From: Spinacia oleracea
Lineage: Eukaryota; Streptophyta; Magnoliopsida; Caryophyllales; Amaranthaceae
Length of the DNA: 64,000 nucleotides
Direction: 5' to 3'
Assembly (NCBI RefSeq): GCF_020520425.1
Contig: NC_079488.1
Location: 25,174,247 to 25,238,246 of the forward strand
Below the pieces are notes generated by a model. It did no database searches and was not told where the DNA came from. It worked only from the letters and a program-made list of their open reading frames with translations. Each line of letters starts with the position of its first letter. Position 1 is the first letter of the stretch. Below, piece after piece: positions 5,101 to 50,300 of the stretch. The position numbers and the translations under genes were made by a program.

Positions 5101-7816
5101 AGGCTATCATCAGATTCCCATGTCCGAAAAAGACCAAGCCCACACTGCTTTCATCACCAGCCAAGGAGTATATTGCTACAAAGTGATGCCCTTCGGGCTA
5201 AAAAATGCAGGGGCAACATACCAGAGGCTAGTTAACAAAATCTTTGGGGAACAGATTGGGAGGAACATCGAAGTGTACGTTGACGACATGATCGTTAAGA
5301 GAAAACTCCCTGAAGGGCACCCCTCCGATCTCGAAGAAACACTCAAGACCCTGCGCCTACACAACATGAAGCTCAATCCAAAGAAATGCGTATTTGGTGT
5401 CAAAGGTGGGAAGTGCCTCGGATTCCTTGTGGATGAAAGGGGAATAGAAGCAAATCCTGACAAAATACAGGCGCTCCTCGACATGAAATCCCCCCGGTCA
5501 GTCAAGGAAGTCCAAAGACTCACTGGATGCATAGCAGCCCTCGGCAGGTTCTTGTCCCGATCGGCCGATAAAAGTCTGGCTTTCTTCAAAGTACTGAAAG
5601 GAGCGGGGTTTAGTTGGAATGCCGAAGCCGAGGCCGCTTTCCAACAACTGAAGGCGCATCTCTCGACCATTCCCAAGTTGGTCTCGCCATTAGCAGGGGA
5701 AACTTTATACCTTTACTTGGGCATCACTGAGTATGCACTTAGCGCGGTCCTTGTCGCCGAAAGAGAGAAACAGCAACACCCAATATACTTCATCAGCCAT
5801 GCATTCCGAGGAGCAGAAGCCAAGTACCCACTCATTGAGAAATTGGTATACGCCCTAGTAATGGCCAGTCGAAAACTCAAACCATACTTCCAGGCACATC
5901 CAATCAAGGTACTGACAAGCCAACCTCTGAGAAAGGTCATTGAGAGTCGAAATCACTCGAACCGCATGACTGAATGGGCAAACCAGCTCTCGGATTTCGG
6001 CCTGGAATATGAGCCGAGAAGGGCAATCAAAGCACAAGCCCTCGCCGATTTTATCGTCGAATGCACCAATCGGCCACCCGAAAGAGAAACGACGAGCCAA
6101 AAGTCGTGGGAACTCTATGTTGATGGGTCGGCCACTAGGACAGGATGTGGAGCGGGCATACTGATCAAAACACCCAGCGGTGATCGGTTCGAATATGCTG
6201 TTAAGTTCTCATTCCTAGCCTCCAATAATGAGTCAGAGTATGAAGCGCTCATCCTCGGAATTCAAATGTGTCAAGCCGCGGGGGCTGTCTCTGTGCAAGC
6301 CAAGTCCGACTCACAACTCATTGTCGGACAAATTCAAGGGGATTTCGAAGCTAAAGAAGACAGCATGAAAATGTACCTGTCAAAGGCAAGGAAAGTCATC
6401 GACCAACTGCAGGGTTTCACCATCCAACACATTCCCCGGTCAGAAAACCAACAAGCCGATGCCCTTTCAAGGTTAGCAAGTTCCGCAGAGGGGATGGAGC
6501 CTAGGACAATTATTTGGGAAGTTCTCCAAGAGCCTAACATAAATGTCGAGGCATTCATGAGCTTAGACAGAGGTCCAGATTGGATGGAGAAAATCATAAA
6601 GTACAAAAGAGACAACGTGCTCCCTGACAGTGAAAAAGAGGCGGCATCGATCAAGAAGCAAGCAGATTGGTTCCTTTGGCATAATGAGGCTCTCTACAAG
6701 GTTTCATACACCCACCCCTTGCTCAAATGTGTCACCCCAGAGGAAGGAAATTACATACTCAGGGAGATACACCAAGGGGCGTGCGGAAGCCACCAAGGGG
6801 CAAGAACCATTGCAGGAAAAGCGCTCCGGTCGGGTTTCTATTGGCCAACTTTAAGAAGTGATGCAACAGACCTGGTTAAAAGATGTGGTCGATGCCAAGA
6901 GTTTGCTAATCTCACCCGAATGCCGGCCAATGACCTAACAACCGTTCAAGCTGTTTTACCCTTCGACAGATGGGGGATGGACATCCTCGGCCCATTCCCA
7001 GTGGCTTCCGGCCAGAGAAAATTCTTAATTGTGGCTGTCGACTACTTCACTAAATGGATCGAGGCAGAACCTCTGGCAAAGATAAGCGACAAGCAAGTGC
7101 AACAATTCATCTGGAGGAATATCATCACGAGATTTGGGGTCCCTCGGACATTAATATCAGACAATGGTCGACAGTTTGATAGCAAGGCCACCAAGGGATA
7201 CTGTGATCGCTTCGGCATACAGACTCGGTTCACGTCGGTTTCACGGCCCCAAAGCAATGGTCAGGCAGAATCTGCTAACAAGATTATCTTGAATGGACTC
7301 AAGACAATGATCGAGGGATCTAGTGGTTCTTGGGTCGATGATCTGCCAGGTGTCTTATGGTCGGCTCGAACCACTGTCAAAGAATCAACTGGGCAAACTC
7401 CTTTTTCACTTGTCTATGGAAGCGACGCCGTCCTTCCCGTCGAGGTTGGCATTCCCTCACCACGAGTCACCTACTATGATTACGAGAAAAATGAAGTCGA
7501 AAAAAGGGTGAATCTCGATTTGCTCCCCGAAACAAGAGGAAACACTCTGCTCAAGTCCATTGCCTATAAGCAGAAGATTGCTCGGTATTTCAACAAAAGA
7601 GTTCGTCCTCGGCCATTGCACGAAGGAGATTGGGTACTGAGGAAAATTGAAGCAACTGGCCGAAGAAGCACCCTCGGAAAAATGGGACCTAACTGGGAAG
7701 GTCCTTACAAGATTGCAAAAGTTATTCGACCTGGCACCTACAACCTCGTCGACACCAAAGGCAAGCAACTTCCTCGACCATGGAACGCCGACAACCTTAA
7801 GAAATTCTACATCTAA
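2130..7816 (+). pseudogene. gag-pol: gag-pol polyprotein of Tat-lineage Ty3/gypsy element (one frameshift)
   Basis: The ATG at 2130 has a good context and begins MVNTRRARRPSPIRHPSP, a usual gag start in this lineage. This frame stops at 2528; the rest runs in another frame to the TAA at 7814-7816 (1733 codons counted from 2615, a position that is not an ATG). In that numbering: retrotransposon gag domain about 130-300, a CEFHKECGHTTKDC knuckle, protease about 480-600 with DSR (499-501) where DSG/DTG is expected, reverse transcriptase with YVDD at 888-891, gypsy-type RNase H, a second RNase H with its first Asp in YVDGS at 1170, integrase HHCC finger from about 1386, and catalytic Asp1456, Asp1516 and Glu1552 (exactly 35 residues between the last two). 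RT, RNase H and integrase look complete. The frameshift and the protease change argue against function of this copy. Confidence 0.93.
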
Positions 7817-18731: not shown

Positions 18732-21700
18732 TACTTAGGAACTCAATCAACTCATCACACATTCAACTACAGCAATTTTGCAGAGCCTCATCTTAGGAAA
18801 GGAAACAGAAGACTGAAGACACCTTTCAGTAATCTTCAATGACTTCTTTTGCATTCTTTTCCAGGTACCAATTCTATGAAGGAGAAAAAATGGAACAGAA
18901 ATAACTGTACCATGATTGTCTGAGGATTTCTTTATGAAGGCCAGAAACACAGGATCACCTGTTAGAAGGAAAAAGAAACTGTCATAAAACGCCTCTTTCG
19001 ATGCCTAATAACATTGGGGAAACACTGTCGGGAATATAGTCTGTATTACATATGGAAAATCAATCATTCATTATCACAACCTTGTATGAAAGATGATGTG
19101 CAACATTCTAAAGAAATAACATCATTTGGCTTACAGCGGAGGATACAGGGGTTTAAGTGGGGTCACGTGACCCCACTTGCCAAAAAAATTACCTAATTAA
19201 ATTTAATTTCTCCCTAATTTAAAAAAAAAATACTCAACTTCAGTTAATTTTTCATTAACTTTTAAATAGTGACCTCACTGCCTACACTTTCTGGATTCGC
19301 CACTGTTGGTTTTTGTTGGTTTAGTACTGTTTTCATCTTAAATAATACACAAGTGAAACTCGCTTTACCACCCAAAGCATACTACTACAAGGCCAGCAGT
19401 ATTCGCAGACCAACAACATATAAACGAAGACAGAACAAATTTAATCAATATATTTTGATGCAAATTTTAAACATCACTTAGGGCGCACATATACTATAAA
19501 CAATTGTTACTTCTTTTTTTTTTGATAAAATAAACAATTGTTACTAATTCAAAGCCATATTCCATCTTTGATATCAGGAATATGCCTAATTACAAGCCTA
19601 CGAATAGTCTAGAACTGAACTGTCTGAAGTTTGGGGTTGATTTAAGCTGGTGATCTTACCAGGATTTGCTTATAAATTTTCCAACAGGGAGAAGATAGGC
19701 ATAATCAGGTCATGTTTACTCTAAGGTCATCTCCTAAGGTACGGTCTCCAATTATTTAGTCCTGTACGAAATAGATTATAAAGCAAAAGAACATAGAGGT
19801 GGAAATTAGAGATGGATGGGAGGAGAGAAAAAGAAATGTATAGGATTAAAAGAGGAAAATGTGGCATTCTTTATTTTCAAAGGGAAAGTTGTTTCGCCGC
19901 TAGAAAAAGTTGTTCTCCACCTTTTGGGGAAATTGTTTTCCACCTTTAACAAAACAAACAAAAGAAAATAGGAAAATCATTTTCAGGGAAAGTGTTTCCG
20001 TCAAAAAAACAGAGCCATAATGTCAATAATGAGAAAGTCCTATTACTCTTTCAAAGAAAAAAGGGTAACTTGTCGTTTGCTTTCATCCTTCCAAATACTT
20101 GATGGCTCGATCTCGTGTGTTTTTCCATAGCCATTCATTAACATACATCATATGTTTTTGCCTATTGTGTACATATAATGTCAATGATGAGATGGCAAGA
20201 GTTATCATTGGTATTCGACTATTTTCATCTAATGAATGACACAATGGTTATTTATGATTGAATTATAAGCTGTGCAACCCAAGCATAGGTTAGGCCTCCT
20301 TAAAATTTTGGCTAGGGACCCTTATTCTCAAACAACCAATATTTATGAAATATAAGAACCGATCAACTAGATACTAGCAAAGGCAGGCATGAAAAAGGAC
20401 TAAATATCAACTACGACCTTTACTGAGTTCAACCTGAGCAAAGTTAAAATGCATACCTCTTTAAGGCAACCAGGGGAACGACTGTCTGCTGGTAAAGGCT
20501 TCTTAATCCCCCAGCGAGTTATGTCAGCCTGCATTAAGTCAATTTTATCCCTAATCTCCCTCAATACTCTCAATTCTTCTTCTTCAGCTTTTTCAGAGTT
20601 CATTTCATGGCCCCTTGTTACAAACCTCTGATCCTCAAGTTGCTTAAGTCTTCTATTAAACTGCTGAAGTTCAAAGTCAGCAATGCCGCCTAGTGTTGGG
20701 TGTTTGAAAAGCAATGGTTTATCAGTCTTGCGATCTTTTAGTTTAGGGGATTCATTACTGCTACCCGGGGAAAGCAATGGCTTCTTTTCCCAGTCAATTT
20801 TATCTTTAGAATCGTTTGTCTTAGAACTATTGTCACTTTCTGGGGATAGCAACGGTTCCTTGACATCAGACTTCCAAATCTCACCCCAAACCAAATCTAG
20901 TTTGCCATTCCTAGTTTCACTTCCCAAAGTTACATTTTGGCTTTCTTTCTTAATATTAGAACTGTCAATGTAAGAGCATATAGGGACTTCATAGATATCC
21001 TGAGCAGTTGTTGAGCAAGCAGAACTTTCACATGCTTGAACACTCGCTACTTTTTCAAGGGATTCAACAAAATTTGTTTTTGCAGGAAAATTCTCTGGTG
21101 AGGGATGCGGCATTATTGCAGATTTCTTTGTTAGTGGGACATCGTTTGTATCCTCAGTTGAAGGGGGACTATTAGAGACCTTTAGACTATCCAACTCTTT
21201 CACCCGATCATCTAACTTCCTAATCTCATCCCAATATGAATGGAAGTCTCCATGCTCCTTTCTGACAGAGGGGTCTGCACTTTTGCTTTCCTGCCATGGA
21301 ATAGGAGAAGAAGTTGAGGACCTAGTTGTTCCCTCATTAGAAGTTCTTCTACTCAATACACCATTAAGTGGATTAGGTGGCAGTGAACTAAGCCGTCTAA
21401 GAGAACGAGTACTTGATTCTTCTGAGACCACGTTTTTTCTTGACAACATGTTATCAGGAAAGTGCAACTCACCGGCACCTAAATCTTCACACCCCATGCT
21501 TAAAAGTTTGAACCTGTATGCCTGAACTTGGAACTCAAGGGAAGCAATCTGCATTTCTTTCTGGTATATTATTTCCTGGAAAACCTCAAGTGTTTCTTGA
21601 ACATGAGAGATTTTTTCTTCGGCAATTCTCTTGTATTGACTCGCCTCCATTCCTACTGCTGCCTTTTCCCCCTGCAGGCGTAATATCATGGATAAAGCTT

Positions 21701-21848
21701 CATCAGCAGCAGTAGCAGAGGATTCTCTCTCCATATCCAATTCATTGTATAGTTTCTGCAGAAGTTCTTGCTGAGCTTGAAGCGTCTCCTTCAGGAAATT
21801 ACTTCCGTGTGTGGCTAGAGACAAAGTACGCGTAGCCATCAGGCTCAT
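18732..21848 (-). CDS. GTD-binding (zein-binding, DUF593) domain protein
   Basis: The only ordinary host gene recognised. Exon A runs from ATG 21846-21848 to 20457 and ends ...SPGCLKE before a GTATGC donor. The last coding exon is tiny: after an acceptor at 18959-18961 come eight codons (VILCFWPS) and a stop at 18932-18934, in frame, giving about 472 residues. Residues about 20-115 form a coiled-coil GTD-binding domain (LLQKLYNELDMERESSATAA, EALSMILRLQGEKAAVGMEA). Known family members bind myosin XI tails or act at membranes. The middle is Ser-rich and disordered, with two similar PLLSPES/PLLSPGS phrases, and the C-terminus holds a second coiled coil (FNRRLKQLEDQ, REIRDKIDLMQ). No transmembrane segment is seen in this start model. 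The 3' end of the transcript (18732) is approximate. Confidence 0.88.
19133..19305. mobile_element. small hAT-like MITE in the last intron of the GTD-binding gene (candidate)
   Basis: The left end is ACAGCGGAGGATACAG. The right end, reverse-complemented, is ACAGTGGCGAATCCAG. These 16-base ends agree at 12-13 positions. The flanks TTGGCTTA and TTGGTTTT are a possible degenerate 8-bp target duplication. The element is about 173 bp with no coding capacity. A 24-bp perfect palindrome lies near its left end. Confidence 0.55.
19155..19178. repeat. 24-bp perfect palindrome with a CACGTG core
   Basis: AAGTGGGGTCAC is followed directly by its reverse complement GTGACCCCACTT. The centre is a G-box (CACGTG). 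It lies inside the candidate MITE. Confidence 0.9.
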
Positions 21849-23250: not shown

Positions 23251-23889
23251 CTGAAAATGCTGCAACCCAGATCAATTGCAACCTGTAGCAAATTCCCAGA
23301 ACACCTGACCAAAAACAAAACCACTTTTTTCACGTCATCACACCATTTTGCAGAAGATCAATAAAACATCAATAAAACCTCAAAACAACAATTCAGATCA
23401 CACCCATTTGACAATTAGTCAAGAACAACAAAACACAGTTTCAATTTCGTCCCACTTTTACAAAAATGACATAAATTTCTGCGTCAAATTTCGAGAAAAA
23501 AAATGGCAAAAAAGAAGTGGGTACAAGAAAAAGAAGATAAATGAAAATTGTAATGTAGCGATGTTATGTCGGTATAAATTACAAAAGTATTTGATTGATT
23601 GAGTAAAAAGTACTAAATCCCAATAATAATACTATTAGAACAAAACAATTGTGGAATCCAGATACAATAATAAAGCGACAATTTTTCAGATACTTGACTT
23701 TTATTAATTAATTATTAATAAATTAATAATTTGTTAATTCTTCAAATATTAGATGATGGGTCAAAATTCCCCTACTAATAATGTTTTTCTTTACCTTTCC
23801 AACGGTTTCGTTCGTTGCCTTTCTTTTCATTCCCAAATTCTTATATGAGACTGTCCACCATCAACTGATGGTGAGACCAATTTACACTT

Positions 23890-24049
23890 GTGAATTTAGG
23901 TTAGACATGTTACTTTTTTTTATATAATTTTAGAGGATGTACTTTTTTAGTTTAGGTATGTTACTTCTATAGTTTATACATGTTACTTTTTTTTTATACG
24001 GAGTAGTTTTAGGGGAGATACCTTCTTAGTTTAGGTATGTTACTTCTAT
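23890..24049 (+). repeat. tandem repeat (~75-bp unit), left of the Mutator-like element
   Basis: Units contain GTTTAGGTATGTTACTTC, TATAGTTTATACATGTTAC and TTTTAGAGGAGGTAC-like words. The same array continues at 36049-36535, so the Mutator-like element was inserted into it. Confidence 0.8.
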
Positions 24050-24347
24050 TATTTACACTATGCTAAACCGGGTCCATGCTATGGACCAGGGTATTATTGT
24101 CTTTGTGGTTTCGTGTGTGAGAAGTTGCGTGTTGCTGAAATGTAACTGCCACGTGATTTCTTAATTTTATATATGTTTTTTTTTTTAATTTCCTTTTTCC
24201 CGGCTTTTGAACTTCTCACTCAACTTCTCTCTCTAAACTGCTTTCGAACTTCTCTCTGAATTTCTCTCTCCATTTCAAATTTAATTTCAGTGATTATTTT
24301 CATCCATTTGCATCAAATTACTCTTCCGGTCTTCTTTTTTCTAAAAA

Positions 24348-27300
24348 ATGGTGAAGAAAGCGGCACCGAAGAATCCGGCAGCGAAGAAACCGGCAGCGAA
24401 GAAACTTGAAATCGACAATTCCGTCGCTGAAATGGCTGTTGAAGCTCCTCGAAGGCGAGGAAGAAGGCCAAATGATGTTTCTGAAGAAATTCCTGGTAAT
24501 TCGAACTTATTTTTTGTTTGATTTTGAATTATTGAAATGTTTGTGGTTTTTGCTGAAATTAGGTTTAGTGTTTCATGCAGTTACTGTTTCAAAGATATAG
24601 TTACCTTTTATTTGTTGTTTCTGAAGAAATTCCTGGTAATTCGAACTTATTTTTTGTTTGATTTTGAATTATTGAAATGTTTGTGGTTTTTGCTGAAATT
24701 AGGTTTAGTGTTTCATGCAGTTACTGTTTCAAAGATATAGTTACCTTTTATTTGCTGTTTCTGAAGAAATTTCTAGTAATTCGAACTTATTTTTTGTTTG
24801 ATTTTGAATTATTGAAATGTTTGTGGTTTTTGTTTGAAGTTACTATTTCAAAGATATAGTTACCTTTTATTTTATGTTACGAAGTTTTTAAGTGTTTTTA
24901 TTAGTGACTGGTTTGTTCGTAGTGCTAGTAGTTTTTCAGAGTAATTATATTTTTAAAAGGTTACTATATTTCTAAAACAGTAACTATGTTTTAAAAATAG
25001 TTACTGTCTTTTTAGAAAGTAAATTAACTTTAAAATAGTAACTATGTGTTATAATTAGTTACTATCTTTTTTAGAAAGTAAATATAACTTTAAAACAGTA
25101 AATATGTGTTATAAATAGTTACTGTGTTTTTAGAAAGTAAATAAACTTTAAAATAGGAACTATGTGTTATAAATAGTTACTATCGTTTTTAGAAAGTAAA
25201 TATAACTTTAAAACAGTAACTATGTGTTATAAATAGTTACTATCTTTCTTAAATGTTATTATAAAATTAAACAGTTACTATGTCTAATAAATAGTTACTA
25301 TCTGATTTAAATGGATATTCTATGTTTATGTATTTATTATATTATTTGAAAGGTTACTATATGATTTTATTGGTTACTATGTGATTGTAATGGTTACTAT
25401 ATAGTAATATTTTGTTTTATAATTGTTTTGTTTCAGTTGCTAAGGAATCTGTGTCTATAAAGAAGAACAAAAAGGTTGGCAATCCGAAAACAAAAGCAAT
25501 TGAGCTTGTACCTGAAAAAGAACCAATTGAAGAAGAACAACCTAATCAACTAGTTTTACAAAATTCTTCTCTGGTTGACGTTCCACAGCCTGAATCTCAT
25601 CAACTTCATTCACAAGTTTTGAAAGAAGTTGGCGCTGATGGCCTGCCTATCGTGTAAGTGTTAGTTTAATTTAGTTAATTGTTCTAAATAGTTACTATAT
25701 GTTCAAAATAGTTACTATGTTCTAAATAGTTACTATATTTTTTAAAATAGTTACTATATGTTGTAAACAGTTACTATATGATTCCAAAGGTTACTATATG
25801 TTGTAAACAGTTACTATATGATTCCAAAGGTTACTACATGTTTTAAATAGTTACTATATGATTCCAAAGGTTACTATATGTTTTAAATAGTTACTATATG
25901 TTTTTAAATATGTTCTAAATAGGTTCTATGTGTACTATGTTTACAATAGTTATTATATGATTCCAAAGGTTACTATATGTTCTAAACAGTTACTATATGT
26001 TTTAAATAGTTACTATATGTTTTAAACAGTTACTATATGTTTAAATAGTTTCTATGTGTACTATAGTTACTATATTATTTGAAAGGTTACTATATATTGG
26101 TAACAGTTACTATATCTTCTACATAGTTACTATGTGTTTTTAATAGTTACTGTATGTTTTAAACAGTTACTATGTGTTCTAAATAGTTACTATATGTTTG
26201 AAATACCTGACTTACTTTCATTATTCATTATTTTCAGGTTTAATTTTGATACACAATGTTCAGGAGGATCATTGTGTAAATTAATTAAAGACTTCTCTCC
26301 TGAACAAAAGGCAGTTGTTCAAGTGATAGGCTTTGGAGGATTGTTATGCCTTCAATTAAGTCGAAAGAACACTCAAATGATGTACTGGTGCATCAAATGC
26401 TTTGATGGAGTGAGTTCTTTGTTCACTATCAGTGATTCCAAGCAGTTTGAAATCACTGATTATGATGTGTACGATTTGTTTATGCTCCCCCTTTCTGAGC
26501 TAGAGGTTGAAGGGGTTAAACGCGGGCGCAATTCTACTAATCCTGATTTGGATTTGAAGGTCAAGTGGAGAAAAGAGTTTGGATTTGAAGAAGTCAATGC
26601 TCAAATTCCTGTGAGGTTGCTTGAGGAAAAGATCAAATTGTTGACAGACGGTGGTGATCTGTTTAAACAATTGTTTGTTTTTGTTGCTTTTTCTACATTT
26701 TTGACTCCTACAGCCAATAGGACTGTAGATTTACGATTGGCTAAGGCTTTGGAAGATCCTAAAATGATTCCCCAATACAATTGGTGTAAATACGTTCTTG
26801 ACGTATTATGTGAGGAAACTGTGAAATTTAAAAATTGTCTATTGAAAGGCAAAGATCAAAAGACATTTGGAGGCTGTGTTGTGTTTTTGCAACTTGTTTA
26901 TTTTCAGAGGATTAAGTTTAGGAATTCCAGTAGTATTCCTGATCAATTACCTCTTATTCAGCATTGGACATCGAAGATGGTAACTGATCGGATTCATGCT
27001 GAAAATGCAAATATGAGTGCATTATATGGTTCTGGAATTTCGGAGAAGGAGAAGTATCCAATTTCCAAAAAATTTGTTTTTGTTGATGGTCAAATAGATT
27101 TGAGACAAATAGAATCTATTTCCAAAGAAGGTGAACCTGACAGCAGTGGGAGAAGTGCTGAACAACCCTCTGTTGGCCGTCGACGTCCAAGTCGGCGTCC
27201 TAGGATTCTTCAGTTTGAGCTCCCTGATTCTCATCCTAGTGATGAAGAAATTCTCTCCAAAGCCACTGATGTAAGTTTACTTTATGGTTGATATATTTGT

Positions 27301-30300
27301 CATTATAAACTATAGTTATTTTTTATATCCTATACTTATCTTTTATACAGTATAGTTATCATTATCTTTGTTTTAGTAATTGTAGATATATTATAGTTAT
27401 CTTTTATATACTATAGTTATCATTTATGTTCTATAGTTATCTTTGATACACTAAGTTATCATTACTTTGTTTTAGTAATTGTATTATATACAATAAATAC
27501 TATAGTAATCTTTTATATACTATAGTTACTTAATATTTACTATAGTCACCTTTTATATACTATAGTTACCTTTTATTTACTATAGTTATCTTTTATTCAC
27601 TGTAGTTATCTTTTATATACTATAGTTACCTTTCATATACTATAGTAACCTTTTATATAGTTATATTTATATACTATAGATACCTTTTCTTATAATATTT
27701 GTTGTACTTTTAATTAAATTTTTCTAATATGTTCCATATTTAAATTTATGTATTTTGTTTTACAGAAGTTTCATGGTCAGTGGTTGTTGATGAGGAGAGA
27801 TTTGGATGTCGTTTCGGCCATCCATGCTGACGAGCTGTTCAAAATACAGGCTTCGATGGCAGCACAGAGCCATGGTGATGATATTTTGGAGAATTCCACT
27901 TATCAAAAAATGGTTGATGAGTTGGTGGATTTTCATCAAATGGTGAAGAATCTACCAAATGGTTGGGATGCTCTTTTTGATGATAGTAACAATCCTGTTG
28001 TTACCGTTGCCCCTCAACCTTCTGCTGTTGTTCCAACTGAGCCTGCAGTTTTGTCTACTGCTGCCGTTGTTGATCCAACAACATCTACTGAAGCAGTTGG
28101 TAATCCAGCTCAAGTTACCTCTCAAATATATGAAGTTATTGATGATTTGAATGCCAAAATTAAAAGAACTACAGAGGATGATGATGATGAAATGGATGAA
28201 TGTGAGCGCGTGTGGGCTGCATTCCAAAAATGCATCATTAACAACAATGATGTATCCAATGTGGATGTGAGTGTCTATGGCATAGAGGAGAACGTGCTGT
28301 TCATGTCTCCGTTTATGATTGCATTTGAAGATTTAATGAGACATCTTTCAGCATTTGTTCAAGAAGTTGTGGATTTTGCTGCTTTGTCTGATGGAGAGGG
28401 TATTTTGACTGAGTAAGTTGAAGTTTTTTCATTTCATAATTTATTGTTTTTCTGTATATGTGTTATAGTAACTTTATATTTGATATAGTATCTCTATATT
28501 TGTTATAGTAACTTTATAATTTGATATAGTATCTTTATATCTGATATAGTTACCTATTATATACTATAGTTTCTTTCTATACTTTATAGTTTCCTTTTTA
28601 TATTTTGTAGTTACCTTTTATACTTTATAGTTATCTTTTATATATATTAGTTACCTTTTATACTGTATAGTTACCATTTGAATACTATAGTTACCTCTGT
28701 ATTTTATAGTAACTTCATATACTATAGTTATGTTTTGTATACTATAGTTTCTCTATACTTTATAGTTACCTTCTATATACTGTAGTACCCTTTTATTTAC
28801 TATAGTATCCTTTTATATTCTATTGTTAATTTTTATTTATTATAGTAATCTTTATAATATTTCTGACCTAGTTATTGTTTCTTTTTTATGTTTTTCAGTG
28901 ATAAAGTTCTTGAATACAATCCGTTTATTGCGGTAGCAAGAGAGGACATGTGGACACTTCCTTCTACCTTTGATATTCTTTTGATTCATATTGAAGCTTG
29001 GACTTTCTTATTGAATGAAAATGAAAGGAATTCTGCTGGTTGTCCTCAAAAGCTGTTTTTAGGTGGCACATGCTGTGTAAGTTATATTTTTAATAATATA
29101 GAATGTTAATAATTTTAATTTTTTTGGCCTTTGTTTAATTTTTCTTCTAATATTCATTTGCAGAAATATGTTGCTGCATTGATTGAGAAACCAGACGATG
29201 CAAAAGTTCTGTCTGAATTGTCTGTTTGTCATTCTTATGGTGTGAAAGATGTTAATGCAGTTCAATCTTTGAAAGATTGTAATATGGTATGATTTATATT
29301 TTCTTTATATAACTATATTATTTTCTTTTTTTTGTCTACTTTTTGTAGTTGTAATCTGTTGTTTTTCTTTTTTATATAGATTTTTGCTCCTGTTCTGATT
29401 GAAGATCCGAAGCATTACTATCTGTTTGTGGTTAGTATGAAAGACAAAAGTGTCTATTTCATTGATAATATGCTTCTTGAACCCAAAGAGATTGAAAGAA
29501 AGAAGAAATCTTTTTCTGTCTTGGTAAGTTTTTATATAGTTACCTTATATTTATTGTAGTTACTTTATAAATTTTATAGTTACCCTTATACTAGTCTGAG
29601 TTTTTTAGAGGAACTATATTTTTAAAGGCTACTATGTTTTTTAAACAGTAACTATGTTTTTAAAATAGTTACTATCTTTTTTAGAAAGTAATTTTAACTT
29701 TAAAACAGTATAAATAGTTAGTGTCTGATTTTATAGTATACCCTATGTGTACTATAGTTACTATATTATATGAAAGGTTACTATATGGTGTGCAATAGTT
29801 ACTATACTCTTTTAGAAATAATTATGTGTACAATATTTACTCTATGATTCCAAAGGTTACTATATGTTGTTAATAGTTACTATATGATTTTAATGGTTAT
29901 TATATGATTTTAATAGTTAATCCTGTCCTTATTGAATACAAATACTTTGTTTTGTACAGTGTTCTCCATTGGAAAAACTATTGAAAGAGATGGATAACAT
30001 TCATCATGAAGATATTAGAAGCTTCAGATTTATCCCAGTTGGTGGTAATTGGAAGCGAGGAGCTTATGACAAAGACTGTTGTGTCTATTTGATGATGTTT
30101 ATGATGGTCTTTCATGGTGTTGAAACTATCCAAGATGGTGTTGGGATTTTTGACTTTGATCCCTTGGCAGATGTAAGTTTCTGTATTTAAATTAATTAAT
30201 GTTATTTTTATTTTCTCATCATAGTTATTGTTTTTTTATTATAGTTACTGTTTTTATTCTAATAGTTTCTGTTCAAATATTTGCAGGAAGATTTCAGGAA

Positions 30301-30646
30301 GTTTCTCAGAGCTTGTTTGTGTAGCACCATTGTGTTGTCAAATTTGAATGTTTACATGGATGAATTTCTGAAACAAATGGTTGCATTTAGGGGAAACAGG
30401 AAACAAGATGTTTTGGATGCCTTGATTAAACAAAGGGAAGAGTTGACGCAGAAATACATGAATGACCCTTCAAAAATTGAAATTGTTGCAAAAAATAGTT
30501 CAGCAAGGAAATCCAAATATGTTGAAACAGAAGATGAAGCTGAGACAGATGTCATTGTCGAAGAGAAAGGACTTGGCAAAGGCGGGAGACGCGCTACAGG
30601 AGGCAAACGCGGTAAGGGACGTGGACGAGGTGCTTCACGTGGTTAA
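24348..30646 (+). CDS. Ulp1-like (C48) cysteine protease gene of the Mutator-like element
   Basis: Nine exons with GT-AG introns: 24348-24495, 25437-25653, 26238-27270, 27766-28412, 28899-29076, 29164-29286, 29380-29523, 29960-30172 and 30287-30646. They join without a stop to 1020 codons. The N-terminus is Lys/Ala-rich with an AT-hook-like RRRGRRPND. Exon 3 is a conserved-looking plant domain (FNFDTQCSGGSLCKLIKDF). Exons 5-8 resemble the C48 protease fold: His in PKHYYLFVV and Asp in YFIDNM (exon 7), Cys in YDKDCCVYLM (exon 8; the family usually has DCGVY). The C-terminus is basic (GGKRGKGRGRGASRG). Ulp1 enzymes remove SUMO or similar modifiers; what transposon copies do is unknown. The intact frame suggests recent activity or constraint. 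Homology is inferred from the catalytic pattern and setting. Confidence 0.8.
24476..24870 (+). repeat. 140-bp tandem triplication spanning the first splice donor
   Basis: Three copies start near 24476, 24616 and 24756 (TGTTTCTGAAGAAATTCCTG, the third with a T for C and a truncated end). Each contains the last codons of exon 1 and the donor GTAATT, so three potential donors stand in a row. The first is the exon 1 donor; the rest is intronic. Confidence 0.9.
24890..25430 (+). repeat. AGTTACTAT motif array, intron 1
   Basis: Degenerate repeats of AGTTACTATGTK and GTAACTATGTTTTA words fill the rest of intron 1 up to its acceptor. Longer units (TTAGAAAGTAAATATAACTT) also recur several times. Confidence 0.9.
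25670..26225 (+). repeat. AGTTACTATATG motif array, intron 2
   Basis: Nearly continuous units of AGTTACTATATGTTTTAAAT or AGTTACTATATGATTCCAA. Almost the whole intron is repeat; only the splice ends are unique. Confidence 0.95.
27295..27680 (+). repeat. TATAGTTACCTTTTA motif array, intron 3
   Basis: Units of ACTATAGTTACCTTTTATAT and variants with TTATC. This is the same core as in introns 1-2 but with a different spacer, so each intron has its own subtype. Confidence 0.92.
28450..28865 (+). repeat. TATAGTTACCTTTTA motif array, intron 4
   Basis: Units like those of intron 3 (ATACTATAGTTACCTTTTAT and variants), filling the intron. Confidence 0.9.
29530..29930 (+). repeat. AGTTACTAT motif array, intron 7
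   Basis: A mixture of the two spacer subtypes (ATAGTTACCTTATA and AGTTACTATATGATTTTAAT). Short introns 5 and 6 of this gene lack arrays; intron 8 (30173-30286) has only a few units. Confidence 0.88.
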
Positions 30647-30699
30647 TAATGATTGTTGGTGAAAAAACAATTTAATTTTTGTGTTAGTGTATAGTCAAA

Positions 30700-31770
30700 T
30701 TACTGTTTAGAAAATACAATTAATTCTAGTTTTGATATAGTTACTCTCAGTGATTTTTAATTGTTTGATATATGAGAGTAATTATGACTTTTACAGTAAT
30801 TGTGTCATATTGTTCAATTACTAAGTACGAATATAGTTTCTATTTCAATGAAATAGTTACCTTTTTAAAAATATAGTTACTCTTATAAATTTGTAAGTTA
30901 TATCATTGCATCGAAAATTACTATATTGTCAAAATAGTAACTATATTTTATAAACAGTTACTATATGTAAAGAAGGGTGACCACTAAATGTGAAGAGTTA
31001 GTATATATAAATAGTGAATAATTTGGTGTATAAATCTAAATAGTTACTATCTTACAGATATAGTTATCTTTAATAAGATATAGTTACTCTCTTTTTTATG
31101 GTAATTTATTATTTGATGAATATATAGTTACTATATTGTATGATATAGTAACTGTATTGTATTAAGAGTTACTATATTGTCAAAATAGTAACTATAAAGA
31201 GATAATTTTCAGAATAGTAACTATTGTAATAAGAGTTATATATTGTCAATATAGTAACTATATTTTATAAAGAGATAATTTTCAGAATAGTAACTATTGT
31301 ATTAAGAGTTACTATATTGTCAATATAGTAACTATTTTATAAAGAGTTACTATATTGTCAAAATAGTAACTATATTGTATTAAGAGTTACTATATTGTCA
31401 AAATAGTAAACTATATTGTATTAAGAGTTACTATATTTTCAGAATAGTAACTATACTGTATTAAGAGTTACTATATTGTCAAAATAGTAAACTATATTGT
31501 ATTAAGAGTTACTATATTTTCAGAATAGTAACTATACTGTATTAAGAGTTACTATATTGTCAAAATAGTAAACTATATTGTATTAAGAGTTACTATATTT
31601 TCAGAATAGTAATTTATAAAGAGTTACTATATTTTCAGAATAGTAACTATATTGTATTAGGAGTTACTATATTGTCAAAATTGCAACTATATTTTATAAA
31701 GAGTTACTATATTTTCAGAATAGTAACTATATTGTACTAAGAGTAACTATATTGTCAAAACTATAATATA
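30700..31770. repeat. intergenic motif array between the convergent genes, made of small inverted repeats
   Basis: A unit of about 40 bases, AGAGTTACTATATTGTC followed by AAAATAGTAACTATATTGT, recurs many times from about 31130. Each unit pairs AGTTACTAT with ATAGTAACT across a short loop, so the array can form a row of hairpins. Its right end overlaps the last exon of the transposase gene. Confidence 0.93.
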
Positions 31771-33235
31771 AAACAAGAACATCACTAAAATAGTTGTTCT
31801 TTAGGTGTAAATAATTGAATATTTGGTGTCTTGGATCCAAATTTTTGTGTTTCTTTTTTCCTTTCTTTGATGGCTGCTTGTAATTGTCATATTGACCATT
31901 TATTCTCTTCTTACTCTTTCCTTTAGTATTAGCACGATCAGGATCAAGCACAATTGTTATTTCAGAATTAGTTGATTCTTCGTCTTGTGTTTGTCGTTGT
32001 GCTTCAGCTTTTGCCTTTTCTTGTTCTGCTATCTTTGCAGCTTCTTCTTTTGCCTTCCTTTCTTCTTCCTTTTTTATGATTTCATCAAGTGCTTTATTAT
32101 TCGTTTTAAACTTCTCCTCGGTAAATTTTCTGGCCTTTGCTATCTTATGCCCTTTCAAAATTAAGTTATAGTATTTGTGGTATAAAGTTTAAGCATGAAG
32201 TCAAATATCTACTGTAATTGTAACTATATATGAAAATGAACTAATGTATATTGAAAAATTACCTTCTGATCATATGTAATCTCCAACCAGTAAAATTGTT
32301 GATTTCACCTTTCTCCCTTTTTATTGTATCAACCCTTTCCCATATCTGTTTCTTTGCATATCTAGTCCATCTTGTTGTTATGTAACGATCTGGAATTGTA
32401 TTGATTGAATGTAAATGCAATATTCTCAAACAATGGAAGCACAACCATCCAGATTCTTCAAAGTTTTTGCATGTGCAAGTGACGGTTGAATCTTCCATTT
32501 TGTATTGAACTTCTTGCCTTGATCCTGTTAGATTATTTACATATAATATAATATTATTCAAAAGAACATCTACTCCAAATATTAAATAAAGATTTATAGT
32601 TTTTTTACCTGTTATTCCTTCTATCCACACTTCAAAAAACACTGTTCTTCCAACACTTCCCTTGAACATTGTACTACTTGCCACAGAAAGCTTGAACTCT
32701 TCTTCAAAATCACGGAAAAGTGTTATCGTGTATACATTTGCTGCCTGTTTTAATATAGCACTCATACTTAGCTCTGAAGTAGGTATTCCCCTTGTACAGT
32801 CAAAGTCGTCTTTTTCTTCGGTTTTTCTCCATCGATTTATTGTAGCTTGAAAAATACTATAGAACTCTGTTAATGTTGTACTTTTATTTGCTTTAAATCC
32901 AACAGCATGGTTTGTACTTTCACTCCTTTGTGAAGAAAGTATACCGGCAGAAAAAAAAATCTTTACTTAAAGCTGTACACCATTTTTCTTTAAGACCATA
33001 CAATCTGTTGAACCAATCATCTTTTTCCAGCTTAAAAGTGTTGATCATAGATTTCCAAGTTTCTTCAAAATCATTTGGTGTTATACACCCACTTAAACAC
33101 TTGTAGAATGCGTTTTTGAAATTTTTATCAGACTTCAATAAACCAAACCTACTGTTTGCATTTTTACTCAAGTGCCACAAGCATAACCTGTGTCTTGAAG
33201 AAGGAAAAACCTGAAAAACAATAATGAATATATAT

Positions 33236-33690
33236 AGTTCCACAAAATAGTAACTATATTTTATGAAGAGTTACTATATTTTATAAAGAATTACTATATT
33301 GTCAAAATAGTAACTATATTGTATTAAGAGTTTCTATATTGGCAACAGAGTAACTATATTTTATAAAGAGTTACTATATTGTCAAAATAGTAACTATACT
33401 TTATAAAGTGTTACTATAATTTCAGAATAGTAACTATATTGTATTAAAAGTTACTATATTGTCAAAATAGTAACTATAATTTATAAAGAGTTACTATATT
33501 AACAATATAGTAACAATATTTTATAAAGAGTTACTATATTGTCAAAATAGTAACTATATTTTATAAAGAATTACTATATTGTAAAAATAGTAACTATATT
33601 TTATAAAGAGTTACTATATTGTCAAAATAGTAACTTTTTTTTACAAAGAGTTACTATATTGTCAACATAGTAACTATAATATATGAAGAG
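33236..33690. repeat. motif array in the transposase intron (33211-33694)
   Basis: The same ~40-base inverted-repeat units as at 30.7-31.8 kb (ATAGTAACTATATTTTATAA + AGAGTTACTATATTGTC). The array fills the intron between the two exons that hold the catalytic residues. Confidence 0.93.
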
Positions 33691-34737
33691 GTACCTGTTC
33701 TATTCCAGCAGCAATAGCTGCATCTTGATTAGTGAAAATTGATATAGGGTGCTTTCCTCCCATAGCCTTCAGAAAAGTTTCAAACACCCAAACAAAAGAT
33801 TCTGTAGTTTCATCCCCAATGAAAGCACAAGCAAACATTGTGTTTTTCCAATGGTTATTTATACCAACAAATGGAGCACATATGAGATTGTACTTATTGG
33901 TTCTAAATGTAGTATCAAAAACTAGAACATCTCCATATATTTTGTAATCTTCTCTCATCATAGAATCCCTCCAAAATAGGCACTCAACTTTTCCTTCAGC
34001 ATTGAGTCTTACTCTGAAAAAGAACTCGGGATCTATTGATTGTATGCCATACAGTTTGTTCACTAGTGTTTGTGAATCCTTGCCATCAATTTGCTTCATT
34101 TTTAACTTGTAGCAGTAGTTTAGATGATCAATCATCGTATGACCAACACAGTCGTCTCCGCCAGTTTCTGTTGACATATACCTATAAGACTCCATTGGTC
34201 TTAGACCACATTCTGACATTGCCTCAATAGCTTCTTTTTTAGGTTCTGTCATTTGTCGTTCCGATCGGTGGAGATAATTACTTATTTCTCTTGTCAATGG
34301 GTGATTATGTACCACTACATGCTTTTCTATTTCAAAATCTCCATTTTCATTCTTCTTTGCAAATATTTGAGCTTCACATTTTGTTCTTGTTATCATAACC
34401 CTCTTTCTCCTTTCTTTCTTCTTTGCATCTGATTGATCATCTTCATTTTTGAGTTCTTTGTTTTTAGGAGGGTCTCTTATTCCAGCAGCAGAACAGTAGA
34501 AGTATTTTCCATTAATGATTGTAGTTCCTTCTTTATATCTATTCTTCCCTTTTCGTACACTAAAACCAATAATAGCAGCATGTTTGCAATATAGATCATA
34601 AATCTCATCGGTTGTTTTCCTTGCTTCTCCAATTAAACTGCCATCTAATTCTTTATCAATGTTTTCTTCCTGCTCATTATTTGGATTTTCAAAGATGCCG
34701 TGGTTTGTATCAATTGAATGTATAATGTACAAATACA

Positions 34738-35575
34738 AATATAGTTATCATTAAATGTGATAGTTACTCTTCATTTTTATATAGTTATTCTTTATATGTT
34801 ATACTTATTATATATTTAACATGGTTACTTAAGACCTATTGATTGTTATAGTTACTCTACAGTTCATATAGTTACTCTCTATATGTTATAGTTACTCTAT
34901 ATATTTAACATACTTACTTAGGATCTATTATTTGTTATAGTTACTCTACAGTTACTATAGTTATTCTTTATATCTTATAGTTACTATAAGTTAAATGTAG
35001 TTTATTTCTTATATAGATTACTTCGTTATGTGAAGTTACTTTATAATTAATATAGTTACCTTTCATAAATTATAGTTACTTTATTTTAAATATAGTTATC
35101 ATTATATGTGATAGTTACTCTTCATTTTATACAGTTACTGTTTATATATTATAGTTACTCACAGTTAATATAACTCCTTTTTATATGTGATAGTTACTCT
35201 ACAGTATATAGTTCCTCTTTATATGTGATAGTTACTCTTCATTTTATATAGTTACGTTTTATATGTTATAGTTACTCTATATTTAACATTGTTATTTAAG
35301 ATCTATTAATTGTTATAGTTACTCTACAGTTCATATAGTTACTCTTTATATGTTATAGTTACTCTTCATGTTATATAGTTAGTCTCTATAGTTTATAGTT
35401 ACTCTTAAGTCCTGTCTATATGAGATAGTTACTCTACATTAAACATAGTTTCTCTTTGTATGTTATAGTTACTCTACGTTAAATATAATTCCTCTTTATA
35501 TGTTAGTTACACTATTGCAATTATAATATGTTAACTATATCAACATAACAATTACTATATATATATTAAGAGATA
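34738..35575 (+). repeat. TATAGTTACTCT motif array in a 5' intron of the transposase gene
   Basis: Units such as TTATATGTTATAGTTACTCT and ATATAGTTACTCTTTATA. On this gene the motif is antisense, whereas in the Ulp1 gene it is sense: the core keeps its plus-strand direction over most of the element regardless of the gene's direction. Confidence 0.92.
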
Positions 35576-36048
35576 ATATATCATACCTTCTTCAATACAT
35601 TGATTTGCAACCATAACTTGCTGAGATGTGCCTTCATCTTCATCTTCAACGTCATATACTTCTCTATGATTCTCTAAATTTTCTAAAATAATAATAATTA
35701 CTCAATGAGTATGAAAGTTACTATAATTCTTCGTAGTTAGTTATTAGGATTCGAATATTACCGTCATAATTATACAATTTTTATTCTATTGCACGATTTA
35801 AATCGATATTCAAATCGATTAAATCGTCGTCCATTGTTGAAGCTCGAAGAGAGAGAAGCTGTTGGAGGAGAGAGAAGCTGCTGGAGGAGAGAGAAGCTGC
35901 TGGAGAATAGTGATTTTAGGGTTTAGTTGGGTCGCGCGTTCTGTTTTTTGGATCACGTGATTTCCTAACGGTATATGCGCTGCAAATTACCTAATTACCA
36001 TGGTCCATGGTAACCTTATGGTGGACCGGGTCCATGCAAGCGGAATTG

Positions 36049-36535
36049 TACTTCTATAGTTTAGACATGTTACTTTTTTTATATAATTTTAGACGAAGTA
36101 CTTTTTTTTAGTTTAGGTATTTTACTTCTATAATTTATCCATGTTACTTTTTTCATACGAAGTAGTTTTAGGGGAGATACCTTTTTAGTTTAGGTATGTT
36201 ACTTCTATAGTTTAAACATGTTACTTTTTTTAAATAATTTTAGAGGAGATATTTTTATTAGTTTAGGTATGTTACTTCTATAGTTTAGACATGTTACTTT
36301 TTTTTTATAATTTTAGATGAGGTATTTTTTGAGTTTAGGTATGTTACATGTTACTTTTTTTTATACGGAATAGTTTTATGGGAGGTACATTTTTAGTTTA
36401 GGTATGTTACTTCTATAGTTTAGACATGTTACTTCTTTTTTTATATAATTTTAGAGGAGGTACTTTTTTAGTTTAGGTATGTTACTTCTATAGTTTAGAT
36501 CTGTTACTTTTTTTTATATAGTTTTAGGGGAGGTA
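36049..36535 (+). repeat. tandem repeat (~75-bp unit), right of the Mutator-like element
   Basis: About six units of GTTTAGGTATGTTACTTC / TATAGTTTAGACATGTTAC / TTTTAGAGGAGGTAC, continuing the array at 23890-24049. The array as a whole predates the insertion. Confidence 0.88.
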
Positions 36536-37825
36536 CGCTATTGGTTTCGCGCTCGTCACACCATCAAGTTGATGATGTGACTGGTCTCACAGGAGACGCG
36601 CTGCTTTTCATTTTTTTTGGGTCTCCCTTTGTTTTCTTTTTCGATCACTAGGAGAGCCTAGAATGATTCTAAGGATCTGTTATATTTTTTACTTATTTTA
36701 AATTATTTCAGATAAAAGTGAGTTCAGATAATATAAGGTCAGAATTTTTTTTTTTTTTTGATATTTTAACATATAAATAAATTTATTTCAGTTAAGATAA
36801 GTTTTTTTGCAGATAAAATAAGTGCAGTTAAATTCAGATAATATAAGTTCAGACAAAACAAGTCAAATAGAACGGAACATAAGTTCAAGAGTAATTAGAT
36901 GGGTTTGAGTGATAGATTGTACAGTTCATTTGAAATTTTGCACTTGGGTAGTCGGGTGTATCCTCGAAGTGTAATGGAGTGTACAGAGATGCATAATAGA
37001 GGTTCTATGGTTTGTTAAGTGTCGTATATTTTGTCTAGCAATGGATTATTAATGTGTTGCAATAATGTTGATAAGACTATGTTCTCACAAGATAAGGTCT
37101 GATCTAATGGTAAGATTTTGGAATCAAATTAATTTCGGGTATTTTTCTTAAAGAATTTTGGTTTTTTAACCAGAACCAGTTGATCAGTGCGGGGTTTCGG
37201 TCTGATGCACCTTCTCCTTATCTACCAAAAATATTAAGGAATATGATTAATATTGGAATGCAATAATTGAATCGTGTACACAACCCTACATACCTCAAAG
37301 TCTTGACTCTTGAAGATCAAACTTTTAACCATAAGAACTACGTAGTAGTACTAACTAGATATTATAAAATTATATTTGATCATTTTATTATAAATAATTA
37401 ATTGAAATATTTCTCCCCCTAAAGTTATTTTACCCGTAATTAATAAATCTTGAACATACTAATTTAATCATATAATATGCAATTTTCGCTCTACTACATA
37501 CGTATTACACGTTTTATATGCTTAATAATATGCTAATTTGACCAAGATATTGAGTAAATATATTTCTCGTTATTGTATATACCGATTTGACTAAATATTT
37601 TAGCAAACTATTATTACATGGTATCAATTAATTTTTTACATACATAAAAAGTTTATATAAAAGGATAGAAAATAACAATAATAAAAAAGGTGAAGAGTTT
37701 TTTTAGGGAAAATATTTTTGGCGGAAAAATTTTCTACCATAAAGTGACATTTGTCATTCTTGATGTCTATTATAGTATTAAGTTATACGGAGTAGAAGAT
37801 TGGTAAATTAAAATCCTCCTTTTTT
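36536..37825. other. intergenic, no gene seen
   Basis: AT-rich, with words such as AGTTCAGATAATATAAG and CAGATAAAATAAG repeated around 36720-36870. No ORF with recognisable homology. Confidence 0.5.
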
Positions 37826-47397: not shown

Positions 47398-50300
47398 GGT
47401 ACGGTAGTATGGAGGATCAACGACAGGAAAATGATATTGGACGGCCTATTCGAGTGGAGCGGCCACCCCTGAAAAAGGAAATGCCGACTAAGCAGCAACA
47501 GACGCCGGCTCCAAGGATCACAGGGGATGCCGCCCGGATTTTTGCAGCAGGACACACGCCTCGTCATGCCGCCGAGGTGGAAGTGCTCAGTGAGGAAGAT
47601 GAGCAGGGAAACCGCACACCCCCTAGAGGACACCTGAATCCTCAAGCAGATACAGTAATGGAAGAGAATCCTGACATGCCCGTGTCTGTGGGCACCCTAC
47701 GAGCCATCTTGGCCGAGTTCCAAGCTGACATGGGCAAGACAGTCAACGCTGAAGTACAGAAGAGCATGCTAATTTACACCACCAGAGCGGCTACCAATCA
47801 GGAGAGGCCTGCAGATAATAGACCATCACTTTCTCTACGTCCCCCGAATGTCTGGACCAGGCAGACAGAGGAGGACGTCAGGAGGCGGTTGCCTGGGAAC
47901 CAAGCCAATCAGACCCTGTCTTACCTGCCACGCCGACTGCCCCAACGCCTGGTCGGAGAAACGTCTCGAGGACGTGAGCAGCCACAAGCGGAGCTGGTCC
48001 CTGACTCGGAATCTGACCTTTCTGACATAGGGTCAACCCCCGTCATGCCGGATAGACCTCTACCTCACCCAAATTACACGCACTTGAGTCAGGCGCGCCC
48101 ACGGGGAACCCGATCAAGTCTTCAAACTCGCCGTCATGAGTCCTCCCGGCGTGAGCCGTACTCAATGTACTAGGATCCTGTGTATCACATTCAAGAGGGA
48201 GTGTCCAACCTGGCCCTCGGACATTCCACTCCTTTTGCAGATAATATCATGAGAGCACCGAAGGAGCCTAAGATCAAGCCGCCCAACATCGACTCATATG
48301 ATGGAACTACAGATCCGGATATGCACCTCTTAGCTTACAGGCACCATATGTATGTTCAGGGAACAAATGACTCCACCTGGTGCAAGTATTTTCCGGGTAC
48401 GCTGAAAGGGGTAGCGTCTAAGTGGTTTGAGAGGCTCCCCGCTGGAACCATTCGCACATTTTCTGAGCTTGAGCTACTGTTTTCCACTCGGTTCATGGCT
48501 CACAAGGAAGAAAAGAAGACGAGCATGCATTTGAGTCGGATCCAGCAAGGGAAGGACGAGTCTTTAAGGAGTTATGTGAAAAGATTCAACTTAGAAGCAG
48601 GGCAAATCCCTGATTTGCCGGACGGGGTTGCATTTGATAATTTCATCAGGGGGCTTAAGAAAGGCTCCTTCAAGTTTTACTTGGTAAAGAAAAGTGTACG
48701 AACCATGGCGGAGGTGCTAGATGAGGCCGAGGCCTTTATCCATGCTACGGAAAATTGCAGCGTCCCAAAGGAGCCTCGAGGAAGTGATACTGTTGAGCCA
48801 GCGGCAAAGAAAGAAAATTTTGAGAAGAAGAGCCGGCCTAATGGGACCTGGGCTATTGCAAAAGAGTCAGACAGATTTCCAACAGCTGCTGGTCAGAAGA
48901 GGTCCAGAACCTATGACCGGGAGCGATTTGAATACAACACAGATATGTACACAATTCTGATGGACCTAGGGTCCAAGTTTGAGATTGATCGGCCGTTTCC
49001 CATGAAATCGCCGCCGGAAAGTAGGGACCCCAAGCTGTATTGCCACTTTCATAGTGACATTAGACATGACACTAAGGAATGTAAGAGCCTGAAAAGGGCA
49101 CTGGACGGCCTTGCCGCTAAGGGTTTCTTAAAGAGTTATATCAGCAGAAATACTGGAGGTTCAGGAAAACCGTTCTACAAAAAGAACAAGTCACCTCCCT
49201 CGGAGGAGGATGGAAACTGTACTGATCCGGAGTGTGTGGCCGTCATATCAGGAGGATTGGCCGCCGGAGGGCCAACCATGAGAGGTCACAAAGACTATGC
49301 CAAGCGGCTGGGGCAAGTGATGTTGTCGGGAAAGGCCACAGCCGACCCGTTCCCAAAAGTAGAAATCGGCGAGGCCGACCGTGGAAAAATAGCTACCCCA
49401 CATGACGACCCACTGGTGATCGAGCTGAAAACTGCCAACCTAAGGGTTAGGCGCATCGTGGTTGATACAGGGAGTTCGTCATACATAATTAGCCTTGACT
49501 GCAGCATGATCCCTCAAAAATAGAGAAAATTCACTATCCCATTATAGGCTTTGGGGGTAGTATAATTCATCCAGTCGGCATCATTTCTCTCCCTCTGCGG
49601 ATGGGAAGTAAGAAAGAATTTCGTCAAATGGACGTTCGTTTCCTCATAGTGAAAGATCTGACTGCTTACAATGTCATTTTGGGGCGTCCTACTTTGAACA
49701 GGGCAAAGGTTGTCATCGTTACTCAACTAATGCTCCTAAAGTTTGTTTGTGATGATGGGAGCGTCAGCACTATACATGGTGATCAACCGCAAGCTAGAGA
49801 CTGCTATTTAACCACCTTGAGCCCAGAGGCATGGGGGTCAGGTGAGGAGAAAGATGTGTCAGGTAACAAGCGAAAGTGCAGTGGCACGCAACCCAAATCT
49901 ATGAAAGAAACACTAACTATATCAACGACGCACATGGAAGAGAGACGGCCAGAGGCTGTTGGGGCTCATTACAATGTGGTGTTAAATGTGGACAAACCAG
50001 ACAGAGTAGTGCCCATTGGAATTTCTCCTGACGACCCGCTGGCGGCAGAGTTGGTCCACTTACTGAGAGAATTTGAGGATATCTTCGCTTTTACTGTTGA
50101 GGAGATGCCCGGGATTGACCCTATTGTGGCCGTTCACAAGATAAATGTGGACCCAAATTTTAAACCGGTCCGTCAGAAGAAAAGGAACCATGGGGAAATT
50201 AGAAATCAGGCGGCAGCGGCAGAATTGAAAAAGCTGATGGATGCAAGGTTTATTCGATCTAGCCAATATCCGGACTGGGTTGCTAATGTGGTCCTCGTCC

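Follow-up and report, generated by a model that had tools for sequence, protein, structure and literature searches.

TAGTTAC arrays in the introns and intergenic gap of a spinach Mutator-like element are probable targets of an element-encoded, VANC-like anti-silencing protein

What has filled the long introns of two neighbouring genes, and the gap between them, with one short motif? The question is raised by a 64,000-nucleotide stretch of spinach DNA (the window, meaning the whole stretch analysed), in which a first-pass annotation had described such arrays; all results presented here come from one element copy, and confinement of the motif was assessed within these 64,000 nt. Our preferred answer, to which we give a probability of roughly 70%, is that the element encodes a sequence-specific anti-silencing protein and that the arrays serve as its cis targets. 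The source of this protein is probably the first gene, a VANC-like candidate combining a Ulp1 domain with a divergent region resembling DUF1985. Binding by the gene 1 protein, loss of methylation, and mobilisation are the steps that we infer.

Judged by the domains found, the DNA of the window looks plant-like. A Mutator-like element, not assigned to a strand, occupies approximately 23.85-36.59 kb, with provisional limits (23846..36589) placed at a degenerate inverted repeat. This repeat (23846-23877 and 36555-36589), picked out by eye, scored 43, and none of 500 shuffles went above 34; a stricter unguided alignment gave no inverted match between the two element flanks, and among 4136 candidate pairs there was no convincing target-site duplication of the 8-11 bp expected for a MULE and none that fits the repeat. 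A general search for inverted repeats returned 958 pairs, and the 25 listed all lay inside the arrays. Neither blastn with the whole element nor tblastn with part of gene 1 exon 3, each run against the rest of the window, revealed a second copy.

The element comprises two convergent genes with a gap of about 1.1 kb between them. Gene 1 (24348..30646, plus strand) has nine exons, GT-AG introns, and an open frame of 1020 amino acids. Gene 2 (31727..35834, minus strand, with provisional 5' exon limits) encodes a transposase with the MULE domain by which a Mutator-like element is recognised (PF10551, E 3.3e-16), together with FAR1 (PF03101, E 2.7e-15) and SWIM (PF04434, E 9.3e-05) domains. Its frame shifts near 32950, at a run of nine T on the minus strand; either this copy is broken or the T run was miscounted. 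The last open frame of gene 2 reaches the edge of the intergenic array, with its stop at 31727.

The claim that the motif fills the long introns of both genes and the gap was borne out: all seven introns longer than 300 bp (gene 1 introns 1, 2, 3, 4, and 7; gene 2 introns 2 and 3) and the intergenic gap carry arrays, and none of the six short introns (80-115 bp) contains more than one AGTTAC. The motif itself needed redefinition. The 10-mer AGTTACTATA occurs 46 times in the window (0.15 expected; a total not attained in any of 100 shuffles), spanning 25690-35725, with 45 copies in six of the eight arrays and one at 35716, but it is missing from the other two arrays (24890-25430 and 27295-27680). 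The core common to all eight is TAGTTAC/T, not the full 10-mer; TAGTTAC is present 90 times in the element.

Counting the shorter word AGTTAC gave 130 sites in 7349 bp of non-coding element DNA (17.7/kb), 2 in 5412 bp of exons (0.37/kb), and 14 in 51239 bp outside the element (0.27/kb). The exons had been called free of the motif, which is true of the 10-mer (0 of 46 copies in modelled exons, nor any outside the element) but not quite of AGTTAC, since besides the two exonic sites there is one more in 31727-31769, a segment scored as non-coding because the counts took the end of gene 2 as 31770. AGTTAC exceeded all 200 shuffles in gene 1 introns 1, 2, 4, and 7, in the intergenic gap, and in gene 2 introns 2 and 3. 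Within the window, a dense tandem short motif occupies the non-coding DNA of the element and is rare elsewhere, as in VANC systems.

When core-free 12-mers were compared, the arrays fell into four spacer classes. Class A comprises gene 1 intron 1 (24496..25436, plus; 16 AGTTAC, 13 plus and 3 minus, 1.2 expected), intron 2 (25654..26237, plus; a 20-bp unit detected by TRF at 25680-26198, 17 AGTTAC, all plus, 1.4 expected), and intron 7 (29524..29959, plus; 8 AGTTAC, 7 plus and 1 minus, 1.0 expected), the last having 20 such 12-mers in common with intron 2 and 19 with intron 1. Class B consists of gene 1 intron 3 (27271..27765, plus; TRF 27303-27659), with 12 AGTTAY, and intron 4 (28413..28898, no strand assigned; 9 AGTTAC, 6 plus and 3 minus, 0.8 expected). 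The core of intron 3 is mostly AGTTAT, which explains why its AGTTAC count of three stays below the highest shuffle value, 4. Class C, built of 40-bp units with one site in each orientation and hence given no strand, unites the intergenic array (30647..31769; 32 AGTTAC, 19 plus and 13 minus, 2.0 expected) and gene 2 intron 3 (33211..33694; 17 AGTTAC, 7 plus and 10 minus, 1.05 expected), which have 36 core-free 12-mers in common. Gene 2 intron 2 (34656..35586, plus; 24 AGTTAC, all plus, 1.5 expected) stands alone as class D.

The spacers were thus correctly described as differing, except that gene 1 introns 1, 2, and 7, introns 3 and 4, and the intergenic array and gene 2 intron 3 share spacer words. 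Pairs of arrays have 8-36 core-free 12-mers in common within a class and 0-4 between classes, where a single 18-mer is also common. Within a class, whole units are shared across distant places; between classes, little is shared beyond the core. Element-wide gene conversion, one of the origins suggested earlier, finds a counterpart in the sharing of whole units between introns, but this sharing stays within three spacer classes.

Such sharing is also what would be expected if the arrays were neutral minisatellites, that is, if an AT-rich 20-bp repeat from one intron had been copied to others and had diverged, with exons lacking it since coding sequence is intolerant. The introns are AT-rich, and the locus has undergone a recent tandem duplication: a 140-bp unit at 24476-24832, ahead of the intron 1 array, is present in 2.5 copies with a 98% match (TRF) and repeats the end of exon 1, the splice donor, and part of intron 1. 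Neutral copying sits poorly with the survival of little except the core between classes, and with the rest of the window, which has its low AGTTAC density even though it includes AT-rich stretches. It also sits poorly with the degree of conservation. When each array was aligned to its own consensus, with the core unweighted, core columns matched in 771 of 814 cases and spacer columns in 1719 of 1937, the core being higher in 8 of 8 arrays (Mantel-Haenszel odds ratio 2.3; p = 5e-7, an optimistic value since repeat units are not independent). This comparison covered arrays with an exact core, two of the eight lying in one intron; gene 1 intron 3 was left out, and columns with a one-mismatch core were placed in neither group. 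Insertions and deletions speak the other way: they numbered 26 per 814 in core columns and 63 per 1937 in spacer columns, and in the intergenic array were commoner in the core (13 per 158) than in the spacer (7 per 367). That the core is spared no more than the spacers counts against selection on the core and is in keeping with neutral repeats, which we nevertheless regard as an unlikely origin of the arrays.

The spacing of the sites bears on the same point. Among 118 gaps of up to 130 bp between successive sites, 89 deviated by at most 1 bp from a multiple of 20 and 7 lay near odd multiples of 10, and the best period was 19.9 bp. Inverted neighbouring sites hold the 20-bp register too, most commonly at offsets of -19 and +21, a regularity that goes against mere copying of a neutral minisatellite.

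Regarding orientation, AGTTAC lies on the plus strand 47 times and on the minus strand 7 times in gene 1 introns, and 32 and 11 times, respectively, in gene 2 introns. Relative to the transcripts, this amounts to 47 sense and 7 antisense sites in gene 1 but 11 sense and 32 antisense sites in gene 2, where only intron 3 is mixed (10 sense, 7 antisense). The first-pass annotation had the word keeping its plus-strand direction outside 30.7-33.7 kb, and it mostly does, although gene 1 intron 4 contains three of the six 10-mers found on the minus strand. A word running mostly along the transcription of gene 1 and mostly against that of gene 2 speaks for a role at the DNA level. A splicing or RNA element, also proposed at the outset, is not favoured, as orientation mostly tracks the plus strand and not the transcript, and the intergenic gap is filled as well. 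The suggestions of a binding site or a chromatin feature have fared better, the arrays behaving within the window as DNA-level sites confined to the element.

If the arrays are binding sites, the protein that reads them could be the transposase itself. They would then be internal transposase sites, binding the FAR1-bearing protein of the element or aiding its assembly; the element does encode a FAR1 DNA-binding domain, and related repeats are found near its ends. The array extent of 24890..35575 given earlier covers arrays that were all recovered, but it stops short of these repeats, which have a GTTACT core and occur in both element ends. On the left, subterminal repeats with a ATGTTACTT core (23897..24065, plus strand) match 36057-36223 directly with a score of 241, and GTTACT occurs four times in 23846-24347. 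On the right, tandem repeats with units of 73-75 bp and the same ATGTTACTT core (36049..36536, plus strand; TRF) accompany 11 plus-strand and no minus-strand GTTACT in 35835-36589. The two sets of subterminal repeats (23897-24065 and 36049-36536) are direct, not inverted, relative to each other. For transposition, sites would be expected at the termini, whereas 129 of the 130 non-coding AGTTAC are intronic or within the gap, leaving one in the terminal flanks, and the terminal repeats have a different context (ATGTTACTT) and longer units. The FHY3/FAR1 box is CACGCGC, and it has a single copy in the element and another outside it. Taken together, these observations make a transposase-binding function improbable.

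A host protein is another candidate reader. The GT-3 box of trihelix GT factors is GGTTAC, and arrays bound by such a factor might serve as intronic enhancers or as nucleosome-excluding DNA; GGTTAC occurs 14 times in the element and 9 times in the four-times longer remainder of the window, and AT-rich phasing at 20 bp could conceivably influence nucleosomes. Yet TAGTTAC, at 90 copies, far outnumbers GGTTAC in the element, and the gap between the convergent 3' ends is filled by arrays as well, which is unlike a promoter-linked enhancer. Of the explanations considered, we hold binding by a host factor to be the least probable.

The preferred reading, recognition by an anti-silencing protein of the element, directs attention to gene 1. 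Its product contains a partial Ulp1 (C48) domain at residues 775-881 (Pfam PF02902, E 8e-06, 26.3 bits against a cut-off of 20.7), the match spanning only positions 78-182 of the 217 in the profile. At residues 220-314, the second-best family was DUF1985 (PF09331), with a weak match of 14.4 bits (E 0.039) against a cut-off of 35.1; exon 3 alone reached 16.2 bits (E 0.011), still under that cut-off. DUF1985 had been named before the domain scan, and if it is treated as a single pre-named model among 24736, the E value of 0.039 becomes approximately 1.6e-6 by our own arithmetic. A weak PMD match (E 0.11) overlaps the same stretch; with this overlap, the sub-threshold DUF1985, and the incomplete Ulp1, gene 1 stands as a candidate VANC. 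DUF287 was absent from the matches of the whole protein at E up to 1 and of 5 of the 9 exons at E up to 10. The lysine-rich, repetitive N-terminus corresponds to a 15-bp tandem repeat in the DNA (24353-24405) and includes an AT-hook-like stretch, RRRGRRP, noticed by eye. Searches of solved structures gave 0 matches at E up to 10 for the N-terminal 466 residues and just two for the Ulp1 part (E 0.43 and 0.75), both to a deacetylase, and the structure predicted for exon 3 from the single sequence (mean pLDDT 34.5) was too poor to use. Viral contigs contained no confirmed relatives of gene 1 exon 3 or of the main transposase exon.

The annotation had also stated that it knew of no described system of this kind; the target repeats of VANC proteins in VANDAL elements are, in fact, the same kind of arrangement (PMC5735166). 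As described in passages of that paper, VANC21 of Arabidopsis binds YAGTATTAY in tandem repeats in the introns, intergenic regions, and terminal DNA of VANDAL21 (Hosaka et al. 2017, PMC5735166), and the targets of VANC6 contain AGTTGTCC/AC. The same passages report that VANC expression removes methylation throughout the cognate elements, with motif density appearing to matter, that target arrays vary through gain and loss of tandem repeats, and that VANC proteins have DUF1985, DUF287, and variable repeat-rich parts (PMC5735166). The spinach element resembles VANC21 and VANDAL21 (Hiun) as portrayed there: it is a MULE with a transposase and a further gene, a dense tandem short motif fills its non-coding DNA and spares the coding parts, its arrays vary by tandem duplication, its gene structure includes tandem repeats, and the further protein has a match to DUF1985, although only a weak one in spinach gene 1 (PMC5735166). 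It differs in its word (TAGTTAC, not YAGTATTAY), in its FAR1 transposase domain and Ulp1 domain, and in the number of genes, VANDAL21 having three and the spinach element two recognised, a third not having been sought beyond the list of open reading frames (PMC5735166). VANC21 motifs are arrayed in a single orientation (PMC5735166), as are those of gene 2 intron 2 (24 plus, 0 minus), whereas class C alternates. VANC6 and VANDAL6 likewise use a different word (PMC5735166), and the known VANC21 and VANC6 motifs each have 0 copies in the element, though differing motifs are to be expected from family to family.

Other studies add to this comparison. Host RNA-directed methylation targets the same non-coding regions as VANC, according to part of another study (PMC10398659). 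Ulp1-carrying VANCs, termed KIU, are VANC genes in non-TIR MULEs that also act on their cognate elements, according to passages of a 2026 review (PMC13317346); spinach gene 1 shares with them a Ulp1 domain in the further gene of a MULE and differs in the TAGTTAC motif and the FAR1-bearing transposase, a likeness drawn from description and not from sequence. Among the entries consulted in the table of a MULE survey, FAR1 is given for the Jittery plant sub-group, which has one open reading frame, and for half of a Hop sub-group; VANDAL is entered without it (PMC6446971). With its FAR1 match, the spinach element would by this feature stand outside the VANDAL clade, a placement made by domain alone, yet this would not prevent it from functioning in the VANC manner. 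A 16-kb mobile element at the Kochia EPSPS locus likewise combines an FHY3/FAR1-type gene with further genes, so elements of this general build have already been reported (PMC6808082); there, the other genes belong to ubiquitin-like and endonuclease/exonuclease/phosphatase superfamilies, Ulp1 goes unmentioned in the main text, and arrays go unmentioned in the passages that describe the element (PMC6808082).

The case for the VANC-like reading is thus built from site density, the 20-bp register, the better-conserved core, and a Ulp1 domain and weak DUF1985 beside a FAR1/MULE/SWIM transposase. On the other side stand the sub-cut-off DUF1985, the overlapping PMD, the partial Ulp1, the FAR1 domain, the absence of known VANC motifs, the alternation in class C, the indels of the core, and the frame shift of gene 2 in this copy. 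Sasaki et al., writing on VANC in eudicots in EMBO J in 2022, reportedly described the gain and loss of Ulp1 and other domains, a helical periodicity of motifs, and several Arabidopsis systems. We can picture a VANC-type module in a FAR1-bearing (Jittery- or Hop-like) MULE lineage, either moved between transposase lineages or older than their split, whose protein would read 20-bp-phased TAGTTAC, some of it in inverted pairs, and would thus bind cooperatively along one face of the helix; this more detailed proposal is tentative, and we lean slightly against it.

In the mechanism that we favour, the gene 1 protein would bind TAGTTAC-type sites side by side, one per two helical turns, in the introns, the intergenic gap, and perhaps the element ends. 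Such dense binding would remove DNA methylation and other silent marks across the element, allowing both genes to be expressed and the FAR1-bearing transposase to act. The arrays would expand via local tandem duplication and copying between introns, with selection preserving the core and its register. If this is right, gene 1 and the TAGTTAC arrays form a candidate sequence-specific anti-silencing pair, both members of which can be read off the sequence, and VANC-like escape from silencing extends to an element with a FAR1-bearing transposase. The locus would also offer a natural case of one core preserved in four spacer contexts, which would help in learning what the protein reads.

The base composition of the arrays was examined separately. 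The ratio of observed to expected CpG was 0.12 in the arrays (4.79 kb within 24973-35586), 0.46 in the exons, and 0.73 and 0.75 in two AT-rich controls. With CpG so scarce, methylation of the arrays could sit mostly on CHH, with few CHG sites. The scarcity may come from the multiplication of a few CpG-free founder units and is taken as an observation only, since multiplying such units would produce the same result.

A paired 10-mer pattern in bacterial (four stretches) and viral (five) contigs did not correspond to arrays, with 0.5-1.5 AGTTAC/kb in all nine. An Rfam search gave no match at gathering scores. Six further open reading frames of the window were scanned, and four encode retrotransposon proteins. 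The retrotransposon coding region at 2615-7816 contains a 1733-residue open frame with gag, reverse transcriptase, RNase H, and integrase domains, and that at 48180-49523 contains a gag domain. An open reading frame at 20400-21848 on the minus strand carries a Zein-binding domain (E 9.4e-33) and is probably a host gene near the element.
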